Shown here in pieces: positions 39,174 to 45,123 of a stretch of DNA of 45,371 nucleotides. The stretch is from contig DASPIL010000104.1 of the NCBI GenBank assembly GCA_035629175.1, forward strand, positions 1-45,371. Direction: 5' to 3'. The translations under genes were made by a program, and so were the position numbers. This DNA comes from Verrucomicrobiia bacterium. Its GTDB lineage: Bacteria > Verrucomicrobiota > Verrucomicrobiia > Limisphaerales > DASXHY01. The notes beneath the pieces are model-generated. The model saw nothing but the letters and a program-made list of their open reading frames with translations. It ran no database searches and had not been told where the DNA came from. How positions within the stretch are numbered: position 1 is the first letter of the stretch; every line of letters begins with the position of its first letter.

Positions 39174-41072
39174 ATGCAGCCCTGTTTCCCCCAGCGAGCG
39201 CTCGCGATTGTTGTGCTCCTCTGTTTCGTGTTGATCCTTCATGCCCGCGCACAGGGCCCAAACCTGCTCCAGAATCCCGGCTTCGAACAAGGCACAGCCG
39301 CCTGGTTTGGCTTCGGTCCCGTGAACTTCACCACGGTCGCAAGCCCTGTGAATTCAGGCGGCAACGCTGCCCGGATTCAAAATCGGTCCGACAGCTGGAA
39401 CGGCGTTGCGCAATCGCTGGCCGGCATGTTGGAACCCGGGAAACAATACAGCGTTCGGGCTTCTGTTCGCGTGGTTGCCGCCAGCCCCCAGCCAGTGAGG
39501 CTTACGATCCAACGGACGGACGGAAGCGGCACTTCGTACCATGGCGTTGCCAGCGCCACCGCAACGCCCAACACCTGGACGCAACTTGGCGGCAGTTACA
39601 CTCATGCTGCCTCCGGAACGCTGACCGCCCTGAACCTTTACATGGAGGGTCCCGAGGGAGGCGTGGACTTTTATGCGGACGATTTCGCGGTGGAAGGGCA
39701 TGACTGGAAAGCGGCTGCGAACGATCGCATTGAATCGATTCGGAAACGCGACGTGCTTCTGCATGTGATCGATGCCACGGGCAAACCGGTGTCTGGCGCA
39801 ACGGTGTCGGTGGCGCAGACTCGCCACCGGTTTGGATTCGGTTCGGCGATCAATGGCAACATCTCCAATCCGCAGTATGCCGCATTTTTCCGGACGAACT
39901 TTCAATGGGCGGTCATGGAGAACGAGGCGAAATGGTATGCCAACGAACCGTCCCAGGGTTCGGTCACGTATAACTCTGCCAACGCCATCACGAACTTTTG
40001 TCACTTGAACGGAATCACGCTGCGCGGACACACCATTTTCTGGGCAGTCGACCGATGGGTTCAGCCCTGGGTGACAAACCTTTCCAACGCAAACCTTCTC
40101 ATCGCTCTCACCAATCGCTTGAACAGTGCTGTGAATCATTTCAAGGGAACATTTGTGCATTGGGACGTGAACAACGAGATGTTGCACGGGGACTTTTTCG
40201 GAGATCGGCTGGGAACCTGGGTTAATTCATGGATGTTCAAGCATGCGCACGCGCTGGATCCCAGCGTTCGGCTCTTCGTGAATGATTACAATGTGGTTTC
40301 CGCAAATGAAACCGATGCCTACAAGCAACAGATCCAATCCCTCCTTGCCTCGAACGCCCCGATCCATGGAATCGGAGCGCAGGGACATTTCGGGTCCGTG
40401 ATCAACACAACGACGACAGAGAGCCGTCTCGACAGCCTGGCGGAACTCGGCCTGCCGATCTGGATCACGGAATATGATTCGGTGAACGAGGACGAATTTG
40501 TGCGCGCGGACAACCTGGAGAAGCTTTACCGGATTGCGTTTAGCAAACCATCTGTCGACGGCGTGATCATGTGGGGTTTCTGGGCGGGTTCCCATTGGCG
40601 CGGCAGCAATGCGGCCATCGTGAACCTGAACTGGACCTTGAATGAAGCGGGCAGGCGTTATCAAGCGCTGCTCGCCGAATGGACGACACGGACGAATGGG
40701 GGGACATTAGCAAGCGGCGAGTATTCGTTTCGCGGTTTTCACGGCAATTATGACGTCGCGATCACGGTTGGAGGGCAATCCACATTGCGAAAAATTGCGC
40801 TTGAGCCTGGGAGCGGGGTGAGCGCGCAGACGATTGTGGTGAACCCGGGAAATCCCGCGCCCGTCCTGCATTCCGTCAACCATGCGCCCATGCCGGGACA
40901 GTTCTCGTTTCAGGTAAGCGGAAACGCGGGCGGCCTGATTCAGATCCTGATGTCGACGAACCTCGCAACCTGGACGCCCCTGACGAATGTGCTCAACGCT
41001 CACGGAACCATTTCATTCACCCACGCAGCCGCGGCTGGGCCGGTTTATTTCCGGGCGAAGGTCCTGGACTAA
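39174..41072 (+). CDS. Secreted GH10 endo-beta-1,4-xylanase with CBM4/9-like module
   Basis: This 632-aa secreted enzyme should cleave xylan backbones. Order: signal peptide (1-27, ending HARA), a CBM4_9-like carbohydrate-binding module (about 28-175; PNLLQNPGFEQGTAAW, FYADDFAVEG), a GH10 barrel (about 185-505) and a C-terminal beta tail (about 510-632). The GH10 acid/base is Glu335 in WDVNNEMLHGD and the nucleophile is Glu433 in WITEYDS; RGHTIFW and the MWGFWAGSHWRG segment also fit. The tail ends with an STN...W module (ILMSTNLATWTPLTNV). The ATG at 39174 is favoured by signal peptide and promoter, although the frame is open to 38958. Confidence 0.92.
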   Translation: MQPCFPQRALAIVVLLCFVLILHARAQGPNLLQNPGFEQGTAAWFGFGPVNFTTVASPVNSGGNAARIQNRSDSWNGVAQSLAGMLEPGKQYSVRASVRVVAASPQPVRLTIQRTDGSGTSYHGVASATATPNTWTQLGGSYTHAASGTLTALNLYMEGPEGGVDFYADDFAVEGHDWKAAANDRIESIRKRDVLLHVIDATGKPVSGATVSVAQTRHRFGFGSAINGNISNPQYAAFFRTNFQWAVMENEAKWYANEPSQGSVTYNSANAITNFCHLNGITLRGHTIFWAVDRWVQPWVTNLSNANLLIALTNRLNSAVNHFKGTFVHWDVNNEMLHGDFFGDRLGTWVNSWMFKHAHALDPSVRLFVNDYNVVSANETDAYKQQIQSLLASNAPIHGIGAQGHFGSVINTTTTESRLDSLAELGLPIWITEYDSVNEDEFVRADNLEKLYRIAFSKPSVDGVIMWGFWAGSHWRGSNAAIVNLNWTLNEAGRRYQALLAEWTTRTNGGTLASGEYSFRGFHGNYDVAITVGGQSTLRKIALEPGSGVSAQTIVVNPGNPAPVLHSVNHAPMPGQFSFQVSGNAGGLIQILMSTNLATWTPLTNVLNAHGTISFTHAAAAGPVYFRAKVLD

Positions 41073-41171
41073 CCTTTGAGTGTGATGGGTGCTCTGGTCT
41101 CTCGCCCCGGCGCGCGGAAAAAAGGGGACTGCGGAACCACGCCATGCGAAGGCCACAAACAGCGCGAAGAG

Positions 41172-41255
41172 AAGATGTTTAACAGGAGCACGCAGAGGCA
41201 GCAGAGAAAAGGCAGAGGAGGCTGTTTCCGAATCCGTGTCCATCCGTGGTTACGT
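41172..41255 (+). repeat. Intergenic repeat fragment related to the left edge
   Basis: AACAGGAG followed by CACGCAGAGG (41181-41198) and, after about 40 nt, AATCCGTGTCCATCCGTGG match the two kinds of degenerate repeat at 1-298 (AACAGGAGGACGCAGAG; repeated GTGTGATT words and TTCGTGGTT). The copy lies in the 219-nt gap between the convergent xylanase and DUF6807 genes. Confidence 0.5.
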
Positions 41256-41291
41256 TCCTCATCCCTTCAATTTGGGGTTGCGACACCTGCG

Positions 41292-42242
41292 CTACGGGCG
41301 GCGGTCGTCTTCGCGCTTCAGTGCTTCCGTCGTCCACGCCTGCGGACGAATCACGATGCGATAGCGCAGATTCATTTCCTCGGCAGGTTTCAACGTTCGA
41401 ATTGCAGGCGCCAATATTGCCGCGCACACGAAACGCATTTCCTTTGAATTGACAACGTACCACGGCGCTTCCTTGCCCGCATTGACCGGATCACTGAAGA
41501 TTGCAATTCCGCCGACGTCCCGAGAACCGTCGGTGAAGTTGCACGCAAGGGCTGATGCCCTCGGGCGGGCGCGATCGCTTGCGAACTGATCCACCGGCCC
41601 TGAACTCGATACCACGGAAAAGCCCAGTGGCGATCCCGCCAAACGCAAGCCGAGTCCCGCGTACCCGCCATTCACACGCCCATCAGGTTCGCCCGGCATG
41701 GGCGTGCGTTCGAGCACGGCGCCATCCTTTCCCGCAGTAAAATTCGCGCGCCAGCCGATCGAGTAGCCGCCATTCGCGTCCGGGGCCGAAATCTCGAGTT
41801 CGCGCTGCTCGGTTAAATCAACGCGTCCACTTGGATGAACGCAGGTCACTTCCAGTTTGATCACAGCAGAGCCGTCCGGGTTGGCTCGAATTTCAGGCGC
41901 CGTCCACCGCGTTGCACCTTCCGCCTTTCCGGTCTGCCGGTTCTCTTCCCAATAGTTCGCCTTGTTGATGTATTTCCAGGAGAACCACAAACCGTAATGC
42001 CAGGGATGATCTTCAGGCTTGAAGTTCGTCAATGTCGTGCCCCCGATCGCGAGCGGATCGAAGAACGTCTTGCCCTTGGACGGATCAAAGCTAAAGCGCC
42101 AGATGACATTCGTTCCTTGCCGCCACGCGATGGATTTGTCATCGCGCTCCCATTCGGCTTGAAGGTGCGGGACCATTGTGGCGAAGAGAAGAAACGCAAA
42201 GCTGGTGAGGACACCACGAATTTCCGGCGCGGGATTTCTCAT
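41292..42242 (-). CDS. DUF6807 (PmoA-family-labelled) exported protein
   Basis: This 316-aa protein has a signal peptide (about 1-29, ending HLQA). It matches DUF6807, often mislabelled 'PmoA family' or 'methane oxygenase', a beta-sandwich family found beside sugar-processing genes. The key motif HPWHYGLWFSW (79-89) is preceded by FDPLAIGGTTLTN and followed by NYWEENRQTGKAEG. Late motifs are GYAGLGLRLAG and NPG-like NAGKEAPWYVVNSKEM. Function is unproven; there is no link to methane oxidation. It is divergent from the Gfo/Idh/MocA pair. Confidence 0.82.
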   Translation of the reverse strand: MRNPAPEIRGVLTSFAFLLFATMVPHLQAEWERDDKSIAWRQGTNVIWRFSFDPSKGKTFFDPLAIGGTTLTNFKPEDHPWHYGLWFSWKYINKANYWEENRQTGKAEGATRWTAPEIRANPDGSAVIKLEVTCVHPSGRVDLTEQRELEISAPDANGGYSIGWRANFTAGKDGAVLERTPMPGEPDGRVNGGYAGLGLRLAGSPLGFSVVSSSGPVDQFASDRARPRASALACNFTDGSRDVGGIAIFSDPVNAGKEAPWYVVNSKEMRFVCAAILAPAIRTLKPAEEMNLRYRIVIRPQAWTTEALKREDDRRP

Positions 42243-42277
42243 GGGCTACAGGCTACTCACAACGGGAAGGCGATCAA
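42243..42277 (-). promoter_or_regulatory. Leaderless-type promoter of the DUF6807 gene
   Basis: On the minus strand TTGATC (42272-42277), a 16-nt spacer, TAGCCT (42250-42255), then 7 nt to the ATG at 42242. Confidence 0.5.
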
Positions 42278-42329
42278 GCCATGCCAGCGCTGAATTCCAT
42301 GGAAGATCCTCTGTTTTCACCGTTTGCCC

Positions 42330-42364
42330 TTGGATTGCAACCGTTCGAAAGGCATAACGTTTGC
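42330..42364 (+). promoter_or_regulatory. Leaderless-type promoter of the Gfo/Idh/MocA gene
   Basis: TTGGAT (42330-42335), a 17-nt spacer, CATAAC (42353-42358), then 6 nt to the ATG at 42365. The -10 is CATAAC where TATAAT would be ideal. Confidence 0.45.
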
Positions 42365-43765
42365 ATGACTTCGAATCGCCCGTTGTCCCGCCGCCGTTTC
42401 GTCCAGGCAACCGCGCTCGCGACCACCGCAGTCGCCGCGCCCCTCATCATTCCCGCACGATTGCTGGGTGCCGATGCGCCGAGTAACCGCATCCGCGTGG
42501 GACACGTCGGCTGCGGCCGCATCGCGCTCTCGCACGACATGCCGGGCGTCGCGCGTTCCGGCCTTGCGGACATCGTTGCCGTTTGTGATCTCGACACCCG
42601 CCGCGGAACTGCAGGTCGCGAAAAGGCCCGCGAGTTGGGAGCCAGCAGCGGAGCGCCACAACCCGAGGTGCAGGTTTTTCGCGACTATCGTGAGCTGCTT
42701 GCGGCGTCGAACATTGACGCCGTCGTCATCAGCACGCCAGACCATTGGCACGCGGAAATCGCCCTCGCGGCGGTGCGCGCCGGGAAGGATATCTACCTGC
42801 AAAAGCCCATGACAATGACTCACGAGGAAAGCGTCCTGCTCCGCGACGCAGTGGTTAAGTCGGGCCGGGTTTTTCAACTCGGCAGCCAGCAACGGTCATG
42901 GGGTCCCAACGAACAATTCCGCAAAGCCTGTGAACTTGTCCGCAGCGGCCGCGTGGGCCAGTTGAAGCGGGTGGAAATTGGATTACCCACTGATCCCACC
43001 GCGCCAGACAGTCCCGAGCAGCCCGTCCCGGAAAACCTGAATTACGACATGTGGCTGGGACCGACGCCAAAGGTTTATTACACCGAGCAGCGCGTGCATT
43101 CGCAGACCGACATTGGATCGCGACCCGGCTGGCTGCGCAACGACGCCTATTGCCTCGGCATGATCACCGGCTGGGGTTCGCATCATTTTGACACCGCGCA
43201 TTGGGGCATGAATGCGGAACTCAGCGGACCGTCGAAGGTCGAAGGAACGGGCGAATTTCCGAAAAACAAAATCTGGAACGTGCACGGCGCGTATCGCATC
43301 GAGCTGACCTATCCCAACAACGTTCAAATGGTGGTGTCGGACAAATTCCCCAACGGCATCCGTTTCATAGGCGGCGAAGGTTGGATCTTCGTTTCGCGCG
43401 ATGCGCAGGCCGCAACGGCGAGTGATCCCACGTCGCGCGCAACTCCACTGAAGCCTCTGGACGCCAGCAACGAGAAGCTGCTCGATCCTCGCGGGCTCGC
43501 AGTCGAGTTCCAGCACAGCACTTCGCACCACAAGAACTGGCTCGAGTGTGTGAAGTCACGCAAGACAACGCTGGTGCCCGCGCCCGTCGCGCACCACGCG
43601 AACACCGCGTGCATTGTGGCTTGGATTGCGATGAAACTTGGGCGTCCGCTGAATTGGGATGCAAAGGCGGAAAACTTCGTGAACGACGTTGAGGCCAATG
43701 CAATGCTCTCTCGTGTGGAACGCGCTCCCTATGGCGCAGTGCGACTATCAAAAGCGCAGGCATGA
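42365..43765 (+). CDS. Tat-exported Gfo/Idh/MocA family oxidoreductase
   Basis: This 466-aa NAD(P)-dependent oxidoreductase is probably periplasmic. A twin-arginine signal SRRRFVQ (8-14) with a hydrophobic stretch and ARLLGADA is followed by a Rossmann domain (GHVGCGRIALSHD, nucleotide loop at 47-53). DIYLQKPMTMTHEE corresponds to the catalytic Lys motif (EKP, here QKP). The C-terminal alpha/beta domain includes GWGSHHFDTAHWGMN with the usual catalytic His region. Proteins of this type act on sugars or sugar-like compounds; substrate unknown. The ATG at 42365 is preferred because it opens at the Tat signal. Its stop overlaps the next gene's start by ATGA. Confidence 0.9.
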   Translation: MTSNRPLSRRRFVQATALATTAVAAPLIIPARLLGADAPSNRIRVGHVGCGRIALSHDMPGVARSGLADIVAVCDLDTRRGTAGREKARELGASSGAPQPEVQVFRDYRELLAASNIDAVVISTPDHWHAEIALAAVRAGKDIYLQKPMTMTHEESVLLRDAVVKSGRVFQLGSQQRSWGPNEQFRKACELVRSGRVGQLKRVEIGLPTDPTAPDSPEQPVPENLNYDMWLGPTPKVYYTEQRVHSQTDIGSRPGWLRNDAYCLGMITGWGSHHFDTAHWGMNAELSGPSKVEGTGEFPKNKIWNVHGAYRIELTYPNNVQMVVSDKFPNGIRFIGGEGWIFVSRDAQAATASDPTSRATPLKPLDASNEKLLDPRGLAVEFQHSTSHHKNWLECVKSRKTTLVPAPVAHHANTACIVAWIAMKLGRPLNWDAKAENFVNDVEANAMLSRVERAPYGAVRLSKAQA

Positions 43766-45123
43766 AACACACCCTCACAATGATGCTCATCGGATCCATC
43801 ATCGCGATGACACTTTCCGCCGCGGGTCAAGGAAGCGAACCAAAGGTGCGTTTTCGGCTGATGACCATTGATCCCGGCCATTTCCATGCCGCGCTGATTC
43901 AAAAGTTCATGTACGCCGATGTCGATCCGCGCGTGCAGGTGTACGCTCCGGCGGGCGATGATCTGCAGCAACACCTCAAGCGCATCGAGCAATTCAACAG
44001 CCGGACCAACGAACCGACTGCCTGGCAGCAGGAGCTTTATACGGGCGACGATTTCCTCGAAAAAGCCCTGACAACCAAGCCGGGAAACATCGTGGTGCTG
44101 GCTGGAAACAACGCCAGGAAAACTGAGTACATCTTGAAGTGCGTGCAGGCGGGACTGCACGTGCTCGCAGACAAACCGATGGCCATTACGACAGCAGATT
44201 TTACAAAACTGCAGGAAGCCTTCATCGTCGCGGAAGCAAAGGGCGTCCTGCTCTACGACATCATGACGGAGCGATTCGAGATCACCACGGCTTTGCAGCG
44301 GGAGCTTTCCCGGAACCAAGCGTTGTTTGGAACGCTTGTCCGGGGAACAGCCGAAAACCCGGCGATCACCAAGGAGAGCGTTCATCACTTTTCAAAGACG
44401 GTCGCTGGCATGCCGCTCAAGCGGCCGCAATGGTTCTTCGATGTGCAGCAAGAAGGTGAAGGCATTGTGGACGTCACGACGCACCTTGTGGACCTGGTTC
44501 AATGGGAAGCGTTTCCTGACCAGGCGCTGCAACCCCGCGACGTCAAGGTCATGAAAGCGCGCCGCTGGAGCACTCCGCTCACGCGCGAGCAGTTCCGCAA
44601 AGTCACGGGCGCCGAAACCTTTCCTAATTTTCTGCGCAAGGACGTGAAGGATGACCTGTTGCACGTGTATTCAAATGGCGAGTTCACCTACACGCTGCGC
44701 GGAGTCCATGCGAAGGTTTCGGTGATTTGGAATTTCGAGGCTCCCCCTGGAACAGGAGACACGCACGCGTCAATCATGCGCGGCACCCGCGCCAACCTCG
44801 TTATTCGACAAGGCGCGAACGAACAATTCAAACCCGTGCTCCACGTTGAAAACGCTGGCGGCGCGCCGGCGGCGGAGTTCGAAGCCGCCCTGCAAAGCGC
44901 GCTCGCAGCGATTCCCTTTCGCGCCATCTCATTCAAGCGCGACGGCGCGACGTGGCGAATTGTCGTTCCCGAGCACTATAACGCCGGACACGAAGCACAC
45001 TTCGCGCAGGTCACGCAGAACTTCCTGAACTACGTGCGCGCAGGCCAATTGCCGTCGTGGGAGCGGCCGAACATGCTCACGAAATACGCCACGATCATGC
45101 AGGCCTACGAACTGAGCCGCTGA
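43762..45123 (+). CDS. Exported Gfo/Idh/MocA-like oxidoreductase (Oxidoreduct_C type)
   Basis: This 453-aa protein has a Sec-type signal peptide (about 1-22; IGSIIAMTLSAAGQG) and then a Rossmann-like part opening VRFRLMTIDPGHFHAALIQK. Its Lys motif is LHVLADKPMAITTADF (EKP-type, here DKP), and a C-terminal domain matches the Oxidoreduct_C family (FNFEAPPGTGDTH-like WNFEAPPGTGDTH, VVPEHYNAGHEAHFAQVT). The classic GxGxxG nucleotide loop at the N terminus is not visible; GHFHAA stands in its place, as is typical for this subgroup. It is translationally coupled to the preceding Gfo/Idh/MocA gene, so both probably act on the same exported substrate. Confidence 0.85.
   Translation: MKHTLTMMLIGSIIAMTLSAAGQGSEPKVRFRLMTIDPGHFHAALIQKFMYADVDPRVQVYAPAGDDLQQHLKRIEQFNSRTNEPTAWQQELYTGDDFLEKALTTKPGNIVVLAGNNARKTEYILKCVQAGLHVLADKPMAITTADFTKLQEAFIVAEAKGVLLYDIMTERFEITTALQRELSRNQALFGTLVRGTAENPAITKESVHHFSKTVAGMPLKRPQWFFDVQQEGEGIVDVTTHLVDLVQWEAFPDQALQPRDVKVMKARRWSTPLTREQFRKVTGAETFPNFLRKDVKDDLLHVYSNGEFTYTLRGVHAKVSVIWNFEAPPGTGDTHASIMRGTRANLVIRQGANEQFKPVLHVENAGGAPAAEFEAALQSALAAIPFRAISFKRDGATWRIVVPEHYNAGHEAHFAQVTQNFLNYVRAGQLPSWERPNMLTKYATIMQAYELSR

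Follow-up and report, generated by a model that had tools for sequence, protein, structure and literature searches.

An exported pair of Gfo/Idh/MocA-type proteins and a DUF6807 protein as a candidate module for oxidation-assisted glycoside handling in a Verrucomicrobiia bacterium

Oxidation-assisted breakdown of glycosides outside the cytoplasm has been recognised recently, with some of its parts still unnamed. Exported enzymes of the Gfo/Idh/MocA superfamily are already known, and several described systems are close to the one considered here. In the disaccharide and glucosinolate cluster BT2156-BT2160 of Bacteroides thetaiotaomicron, BT2158 is reported to act as a glycoside 3-dehydrogenase in the periplasm and to be required for certain disaccharides (PMC11300592); for the rhizobial ThuAB utilisation of trehalose and maltitol, a route via 3-keto derivatives has been reported or inferred (PMC7404187, PMC4765114); and Zymomonas GFOR and Caulobacter AAOR are reported to carry twin-arginine translocation (Tat) signals (PMC4628093). 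We analysed a contig of 45,371 nucleotides from a Verrucomicrobiia bacterium (DASPIL010000104.1, positions 1 to 45,371, assembly GCA_035629175.1; hereafter the window), whose last 6 kb hold two overlapping Gfo/Idh/MocA-type genes, here called GFO1 and GFO2, a divergent gene for a DUF6807 protein and a gene for a xylanase of glycoside hydrolase family 10 (GH10). On balance, we think it probable that GFO1, GFO2 and DUF6807 make up an exported module that handles a glycoside or sugar with the help of oxidation. To judge from their appearance, the pair and DUF6807 provide a little-known way of processing sugars beyond the cell membrane.

The likeness to the Bacteroides cluster lies in the periplasmic glycoside 3-dehydrogenase. 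GFO1 matched both NCBIfam 3-dehydrogenase families of that cluster (BT_2158 and BT_2159) weakly and falls outside the BT_2158 glycoside 3-dehydrogenase family, its match to the model NF058561 (E value 1e-32) reaching 113.3 bits against a cut-off of 750. The window further differs in that GFO2 belongs to PF16490 (Oxidoreduct_C), that no 3-keto-disaccharide hydrolase match was found on the contig and that DUF6807 is present. With rhizobial ThuAB, where ThuB is the oxidoreductase, it shares an oxidoreductase and a link to ThuA, which is frequent near GFO1-GFO2 pairs and is also found joined to DUF6807; it departs from that system in having no ThuA match on the contig, proteins that look exported and two oxidoreductases. 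GFOR and AAOR are likewise Gfo/Idh/MocA enzymes with Tat signals, but they are single enzymes acting on free sugars and are less similar to GFO1 than are DgpA and the chains 8tdf and 8tdh. The initial annotation had called the exported location of such enzymes striking, which is too strong a word with GFOR, AAOR and BT2158 reported as exported (PMC4628093, PMC11300592). A solved protein of the same family as GFO2, PDB 4oo3 (PARMER_00841 of Parabacteroides merdae), is represented by a structure only, and its title, 'putative oxidoreductase', names neither function nor cofactor. Finally, Lac161_ORF9 (PF14100) from a soil Verrucomicrobia clone belongs to a putative operon that also encodes two proteins for which beta-galactosidase activity was measured (PMC5342196); a DUF6807 gene is what it has in common with the window, and it differs in that the available text of that report mentions no oxidoreductase pair. 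What the window and its relatives contribute is a fold prediction for DUF6807, an altered cofactor site in Oxidoreduct_C, and fusions and neighbours that link DUF6807 to ThuA.

The unexpected point is an asymmetry between the two oxidoreductases: GFO1 combines a Tat-type signal with an intact Rossmann motif, whereas GFO2 has a general secretory (Sec) or lipoprotein-type signal and the sequence DPGHFHA in place of that motif. GFO1 has both domains of a Gfo/Idh/MocA protein over the cut-off (PF01408, E value 1.7e-17, and PF19051, E value 1.8e-20, in a scan of the open reading frame (ORF) from 42281) together with the glycine motif and the catalytic lysine. Among 42 aligned GFO1 proteins, a Tat-like pattern was found in 40, the arginine pair being counted in 41 and in 40 by two scripts; 40 carried GxGRI[A/S/G], the remaining two being without that stretch, and the same 40 kept the lysine of QKP. 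Conservation among the aligned proteins extends to an acidic residue that follows the second strand. The top solved matches of GFO1 were DgpA (7xr9), 8tdf and 8tdh, with E values of about 1e-20, and the glucuronide-3-dehydrogenase chain 8tdi stood lower on the list. GFO2 matched PF16490 with an E value of 1.7e-123 (412 bits), its PF01408 match being limited to model positions 34-109 of 120. The signals of 81 aligned GFO2 proteins were lipobox-like in 42 and merely hydrophobic in 39, and a Tat-like pattern occurred in three, some before a likelier start (calls on signal peptides relied throughout on regular expressions and visual inspection, without SignalP). The canonical GxGxxG-type dinucleotide motif was not found in GFO2; DPGHFHA is exact in 65 of the 81 proteins and PxHFH is present in all of them, and conservation reaches at least 95% at K138, D237 and H241. 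The Tat pathway moves folded proteins and the Sec pathway unfolded ones, and GFO1 could therefore carry a cytoplasmic cofactor across the membrane, which GFO2 could not easily do. For this reason the tightly held cofactor proposed in the initial annotation fits GFO1 and is doubtful for GFO2, where the motif is lost.

The model of GFO2 (predicted local distance difference test, pLDDT, 92.1), together with its PF16490 match, gives it the Rossmann and C-terminal domain fold of the Gfo/Idh/MocA superfamily. PDB 4oo3 matched GFO2 with an E value of 1e-155, 52% identity and a Z score of 55.9 for the model, and the 49 other listed fold entries had Z scores of 26-32. After 4oo3 and three unnamed oxidoreductases, the list continued with glycoside hydrolases dependent on nicotinamide adenine dinucleotide (NAD; 8qc3, 8qc8 and others) at a Z score of about 30.5, tied with many. 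A real though tentative alternative is that the unusual glycine loop of GFO2 belongs to an otherwise ordinary NAD(P) dehydrogenase and the locus encodes two dehydrogenases of different specificity, which would be compatible with an oxidation-assisted module. GFO2 keeps the catalytic lysine and the D...H motif, and NAD-bound members of the family match its model at a Z score of about 30; but all 81 proteins have DPGHFHA or a close variant where GxGxxG would stand, none of the listed sequences shows the acidic residue that follows strand 2, the helix behind strand 1 is just five residues long in the model, and the Sec- or lipoprotein-type signals leave no obvious route for a cytoplasmic cofactor. 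It is less likely, in our estimation, that the GFO2 family represents a Gfo/Idh/MocA fold without an NAD(P) site, which would act on the keto-glycoside made by GFO1 without a nicotinamide cofactor of its own, through a reaction such as elimination, hydration or epimerisation, and DUF6807 would assist in the manner of a mutarotase or epimerase. If true, glycosides would be opened in the periplasm by a new route of two enzymes that is present in several phyla. The locus poses a clean question, whether the Sec-exported partner holds NAD(P) or not.

The GFO1-GFO2 pair is a conserved module. We scanned a genome collection with the GFO2 alignment and kept the best 80 of 570 candidate loci, for which reason the sample leans to close relatives; it comprises 62 loci from Bacteroidota, five each from Pseudomonadota and Verrucomicrobiota, three from Lentisphaerota, two from Gemmatimonadota, one from Kiritimatiellota and two from other bacteria. 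Of the 80 loci, 37, from several phyla, have a GFO1 relative shortly before GFO2 (more than 40% identity, with an end no more than 2.9 kb upstream of the GFO2 stop), and a count of strict adjacency gave 34. Culturable hosts of the pair include Spirosoma, Larkinella and Steroidobacter. The divergences of GFO1 and GFO2 were correlated (r 0.77, a value that none of 2000 permutations reached), a result that common descent alone could give. The start codon lies in the same ATGA overlap in three of the 34 related pairs listed (loci L058, L066 and L072). On the GFO2 tree, the window belongs to a nine-row set, starred in the tree (Shimodaira–Hasegawa-like approximate likelihood ratio test, SH-aLRT, 99), with five rows from Pseudomonadota, two from Gemmatimonadota and one from Opitutae. 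The gene is patchy in the order and phylum of the window, as PF16490 was over the cut-off in 6 of 58 genomes of the order, its own included, and a GFO2 match at an E value of 1e-40 was found in 37 of 387 genomes of the phylum. Besides the window's own, 36 genomes of the phylum have such a match; the loci of 20 of them were examined, a sample that overlaps the 80-locus set by at least two loci; GFO1 was adjacent in 9 of the 20 loci and ThuA was near in 4.

DUF6807 and ThuA recur as companions of GFO2. DUF6807 was found in 15 of the 80 loci (16 matches), ThuA (PF06283) in 21 and either of them in 30, and the start was within 4 kb of GFO2 for 14 of the 16 DUF6807 matches and 19 of the 21 ThuA matches. 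The 16 DUF6807 matches in the 1.32 Mb covered by the loci compare with about 0.5 expected from the density of 47 in 126.7 Mb of 20 host genomes, which were hand-chosen for long contigs or an already known DUF6807 match. The two families are also joined: a single protein of L073 has both PF14100 and PF06283 over the Pfam cut-off, and the profiles that we built for DUF6807 and ThuA both match one ORF in each of L079, L100 and L116. PF14100 is present in 50 of the 58 genomes of the window's order, and among 15 order loci taken from the highest-scoring matches, 9 had a Gfo/Idh/MocA-like gene directly beside DUF6807 on the same strand, 24-28% identical to GFO1 (adjacency was read by eye). The earlier statement that DUF6807 genes are often near such oxidoreductases is supported by the 80 loci and by the order loci, but no DUF6807 was found in the 20 GFO2 loci of the phylum sample.

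The DUF6807 protein of the window belongs to PF14100 (E value 8.2e-36; 124.4 bits against a gathering score of 27). Its AlphaFold2 model, built from 18 sequences (pLDDT 73.6; predicted template modelling score, pTM, 0.75), is mostly beta, and its few helices are confined to the N-terminal signal and to residues 219-224 and 305-314. The best fold matches were beta-sandwich proteins connected with carbohydrates and included the PL26 rhamnogalacturonan lyase 5xqg (Z score 17.5, root-mean-square deviation 7.6), the putative aldose 1-epimerase 3ty1 (Z score 16.4), GalM 4bze (Z score 15.9) and some domains from polysaccharide lyases and galactosidases, and a galactose-mutarotase-like fold is predicted. 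The fold alone shows no function, since the lists also contain the periplasmic domain of YidC and a subunit of plant NDH. H82, R200 and W98 are invariant across the 18 proteins and H81 and D163 nearly so, a pattern that an active site might show. An old name ties PF14100 to the particulate methane monooxygenase subunit PmoA, which is a helical, membrane-bound protein. We rejected this identity, as the predicted fold is mostly beta, and the prediction argues against PF14100 as a model for methane-oxidation PmoA, for which it has reportedly been used (PMC10291797). No publication on a function of DUF6807 or Oxidoreduct_C was found in the open-access literature that we searched, which leaves most subscription journals outside; PF16490, PF19051 and 4OO3 turned up no paper there, and DUF6807 was merely mentioned in passing. 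The locus offers a hypothesis of function for both families.

The reading of the module that we lean towards is periplasmic, oxidation-assisted (3-keto) glycoside handling. GFO1 would fold around NAD(P) in the cytoplasm, cross the membrane by Tat and oxidise a ring hydroxyl of a periplasmic glycoside, most likely at C3. GFO2, threaded through Sec and lacking the glycine motif, would then use the lysine, aspartate and histidine that it conserves to act on the oxidised intermediate, be it as a variant dehydrogenase or reductase or as an enzyme without its own cofactor. DUF6807, with its predicted mutarotase-like fold, may handle the anomer, epimer or keto form and may fill the place that ThuA holds in many related loci. 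We propose oxidation at C3 because of the matches of GFO1 to DgpA (which oxidises C3), 8tdf and 8tdh, its sub-cut-off match to the 3-dehydrogenase model, and the ThuA and DUF6807 companions elsewhere. The genome of the window (5.4 Mb, 96% complete) contains 20 matches to PF06439, the '3-keto-disaccharide hydrolase' family, 19 of them over the cut-off, and six to ThuA; on its contig C76, ThuA, PF06439 and Gfo/Idh/MocA matches lie close together on one strand (C76:29088-31922). The matches and this cluster make 3-keto chemistry plausible in the organism. Four suspected 3-keto-disaccharide hydrolases near DUF6807 in other genomes included one PF06439 member, the other three matching no Pfam family at an E value of 1e-4.

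Several observations weigh against such a role. A GFO1 relative was not found just upstream of GFO2 in 43 of the 80 loci; 8 of the 80 have less than 1.5 kb of upstream sequence. Other neighbours recur, and GFO2 therefore has other contexts: a URO-D-like gene is near GFO2 in 13 loci, only three of which also have GFO1, and in eight Dyadobacter loci GFO2 comes after genes for an MFS transporter, an amidohydrolase and a glucosamine-isomerase-like protein (both sets were assigned by cluster, with Pfam scans of one or two members each). DUF6807 was not found in the 20 phylum loci, and neither DUF6807 nor ThuA was found in the eight other loci of the starred set (L058-L063, L066 and L080, among which L058 and L060 have short flanks). 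On the contig of the window there is no PF06439 or PF06283 match, and hence neither a 3-keto-disaccharide hydrolase beside the GFO pair nor the ThuAB-type arrangement of ThuA beside an oxidoreductase; the contig ends 248 bp after GFO2, and genes further downstream are for this reason invisible. The C3 site itself is inferred from neighbours and distant similarity, and we know of no activity for exactly these families. In the available text of one study, mutants of BT2157 and BT2158 had no growth defect on raffinose-family sugars (PMC11501099).

These points leave room for a chance cluster of unrelated carbohydrate genes, in which only GFO1-GFO2 would be a unit and DUF6807 would be accidental here. 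In its favour, DUF6807 is divergent in the window, the 16 matches in related loci all lying on the GFO2 strand, and the starred-set and phylum loci lack it; we nevertheless find this explanation rather doubtful, since the only PF14100 match found in the genome adjoins its only PF16490 match and the association of DUF6807 with GFO2 is strongly enriched elsewhere. Quite improbable is a pair of nicotinoproteins that interconverts free sugars (e.g., xylose from the xylanase) with bound NADP for osmoprotection or acids, as in GFOR and AAOR: GFOR (1ryd, 1h6a) and AAOR (5a02) are among the solved relatives of GFO1 and both are reported to be Tat-signalled (PMC4628093), but their E values of about 1e-9 and 1e-7 place them well below DgpA, 8tdf and 8tdh, the xylanase is not a conserved neighbour of GFO2, and the ThuA neighbours point to disaccharide-type substrates.

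The xylanase had been described as part of a sugar-processing locus together with the oxidoreductases. In a scan of the longer ORF from 38958, it matched PF00331 with an E value of 2.9e-47 (161.8 bits against a cut-off of 22.1) and the CBM_4_9 family PF02018 with an E value of 3e-25. The nearest solved chain is the beta-xylanase 7d88 (E value 8e-128), and the alignment retains WDVNNE and TEYDS, which we take to be the segments with the GH10 catalytic glutamates; by its Pfam score and these segments the protein is assigned to GH10. A GH10 match was found in only one of the 80 GFO2 loci (L075, 26% identity), and we therefore rejected the xylanase as a member of the oxidoreductase unit and left it out of the module, to which it is probably an independent neighbour.

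The four genes and their families were confirmed by Pfam, all four ORFs being borne out at the positions given in Table 1, and the annotated export of all four proteins and the ATGA coupling of the oxidoreductases agree with the appearance of the signal peptides and with the overlap found. The xylanase gene is convergent with DUF6807, which in turn is divergent from GFO1-GFO2, and because of these directions the four genes do not form one operon. A divergent gene for pyruvate:ferredoxin oxidoreductase lies upstream of the xylanase. No ORF of more than 57 amino acids lies wholly within the final 248 bp on either strand, a simple sigma-70 scan found no promoter-like site between DUF6807 and GFO1, and the promoter and terminator scans gave no more matches than shuffled sequence.

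Table 1. Positions of the genes and sequence elements at the end of the window
Feature	Position	Strand	Basis
GH10 endo-xylanase, Sec-type signal, CBM4/9 module at the N-terminus	39174-41072	+	PF00331, PF02018
DUF6807 protein with Sec-type signal	41292-42242	-	PF14100
Divergent intergenic region between DUF6807 and GFO1	42243-42364	.	sequence and promoter scan
GFO1, Gfo/Idh/MocA oxidoreductase with Tat-type signal, GCGRIA, QKP lysine and GWGSHHFD	42365-43765	+	PF01408 and PF19051
Twin-arginine signal region of GFO1 (SRRRFVQ)	42365-42472	+	sequence; Tat-like pattern in 40/42 relatives
ATGA start/stop overlap of GFO1 and GFO2	43762-43765	+	sequence
GFO2, Oxidoreduct_C protein with Sec-type signal and Gfo/Idh/MocA fold	43762-45123	+	PF16490; related to PDB 4oo3
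DPGHFHA motif of GFO2, replacing the Rossmann glycine motif	43870-43890	+	alignment of 81 GFO2 proteins

Further genes were seen beside GFO2 in the related loci, where clusters of antisense 'shadow' ORFs had been removed by hand from the neighbour clustering. The URO-D-like gene stands directly upstream of GFO2 in L085, L088, L090, L098 (the copy scanned with Pfam), L106, L133, L134 and L136, and 10 of the 13 loci with this gene have no GFO1 beside GFO2. The Dyadobacter set consists of L078, L103, L120, L124, L127, L128, L130 and L135. In the Spirosoma-like loci L075, L081, L089, L097, L110, L117, L125 and L126, the gene immediately after GFO2 is a third one of the Gfo/Idh/MocA type (Pfam scan of L097); a relative of it in L059 carries the segment GLDHAH close to the start. 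Clustering placed SusC/SusD-type genes next to some Bacteroidota copies of GFO2, in five loci, and Pfam confirmed them in L084 and L097 and for the SusD of L113.

Eight proteins chosen for their long DUF6807 ORFs were opened for fusions. Four of them join DUF6807 to DUF7133 (L206, L207, L208 and L209); L206, L207 and L208 also have HEAT, one under the cut-off, and L206 and L208 cytochrome c, L209 having neither, and in L211 DUF6807 is fused to a PhoD-like phosphatase. We dropped a DUF7133-HEAT-cytochrome c protein as the electron acceptor of the module and do not propose one, because the genome of the window has no PF23500 match. Such a protein follows GFO2 in two Steroidobacteraceae loci (L059:11278-13893 and L062:11278-13893; Pfam was run on the L059 copy, to which the L062 copy is 92% identical), and in its HEAT and cytochrome c domains it is reminiscent of Lac161_ORF7, for which beta-galactosidase activity is reported.

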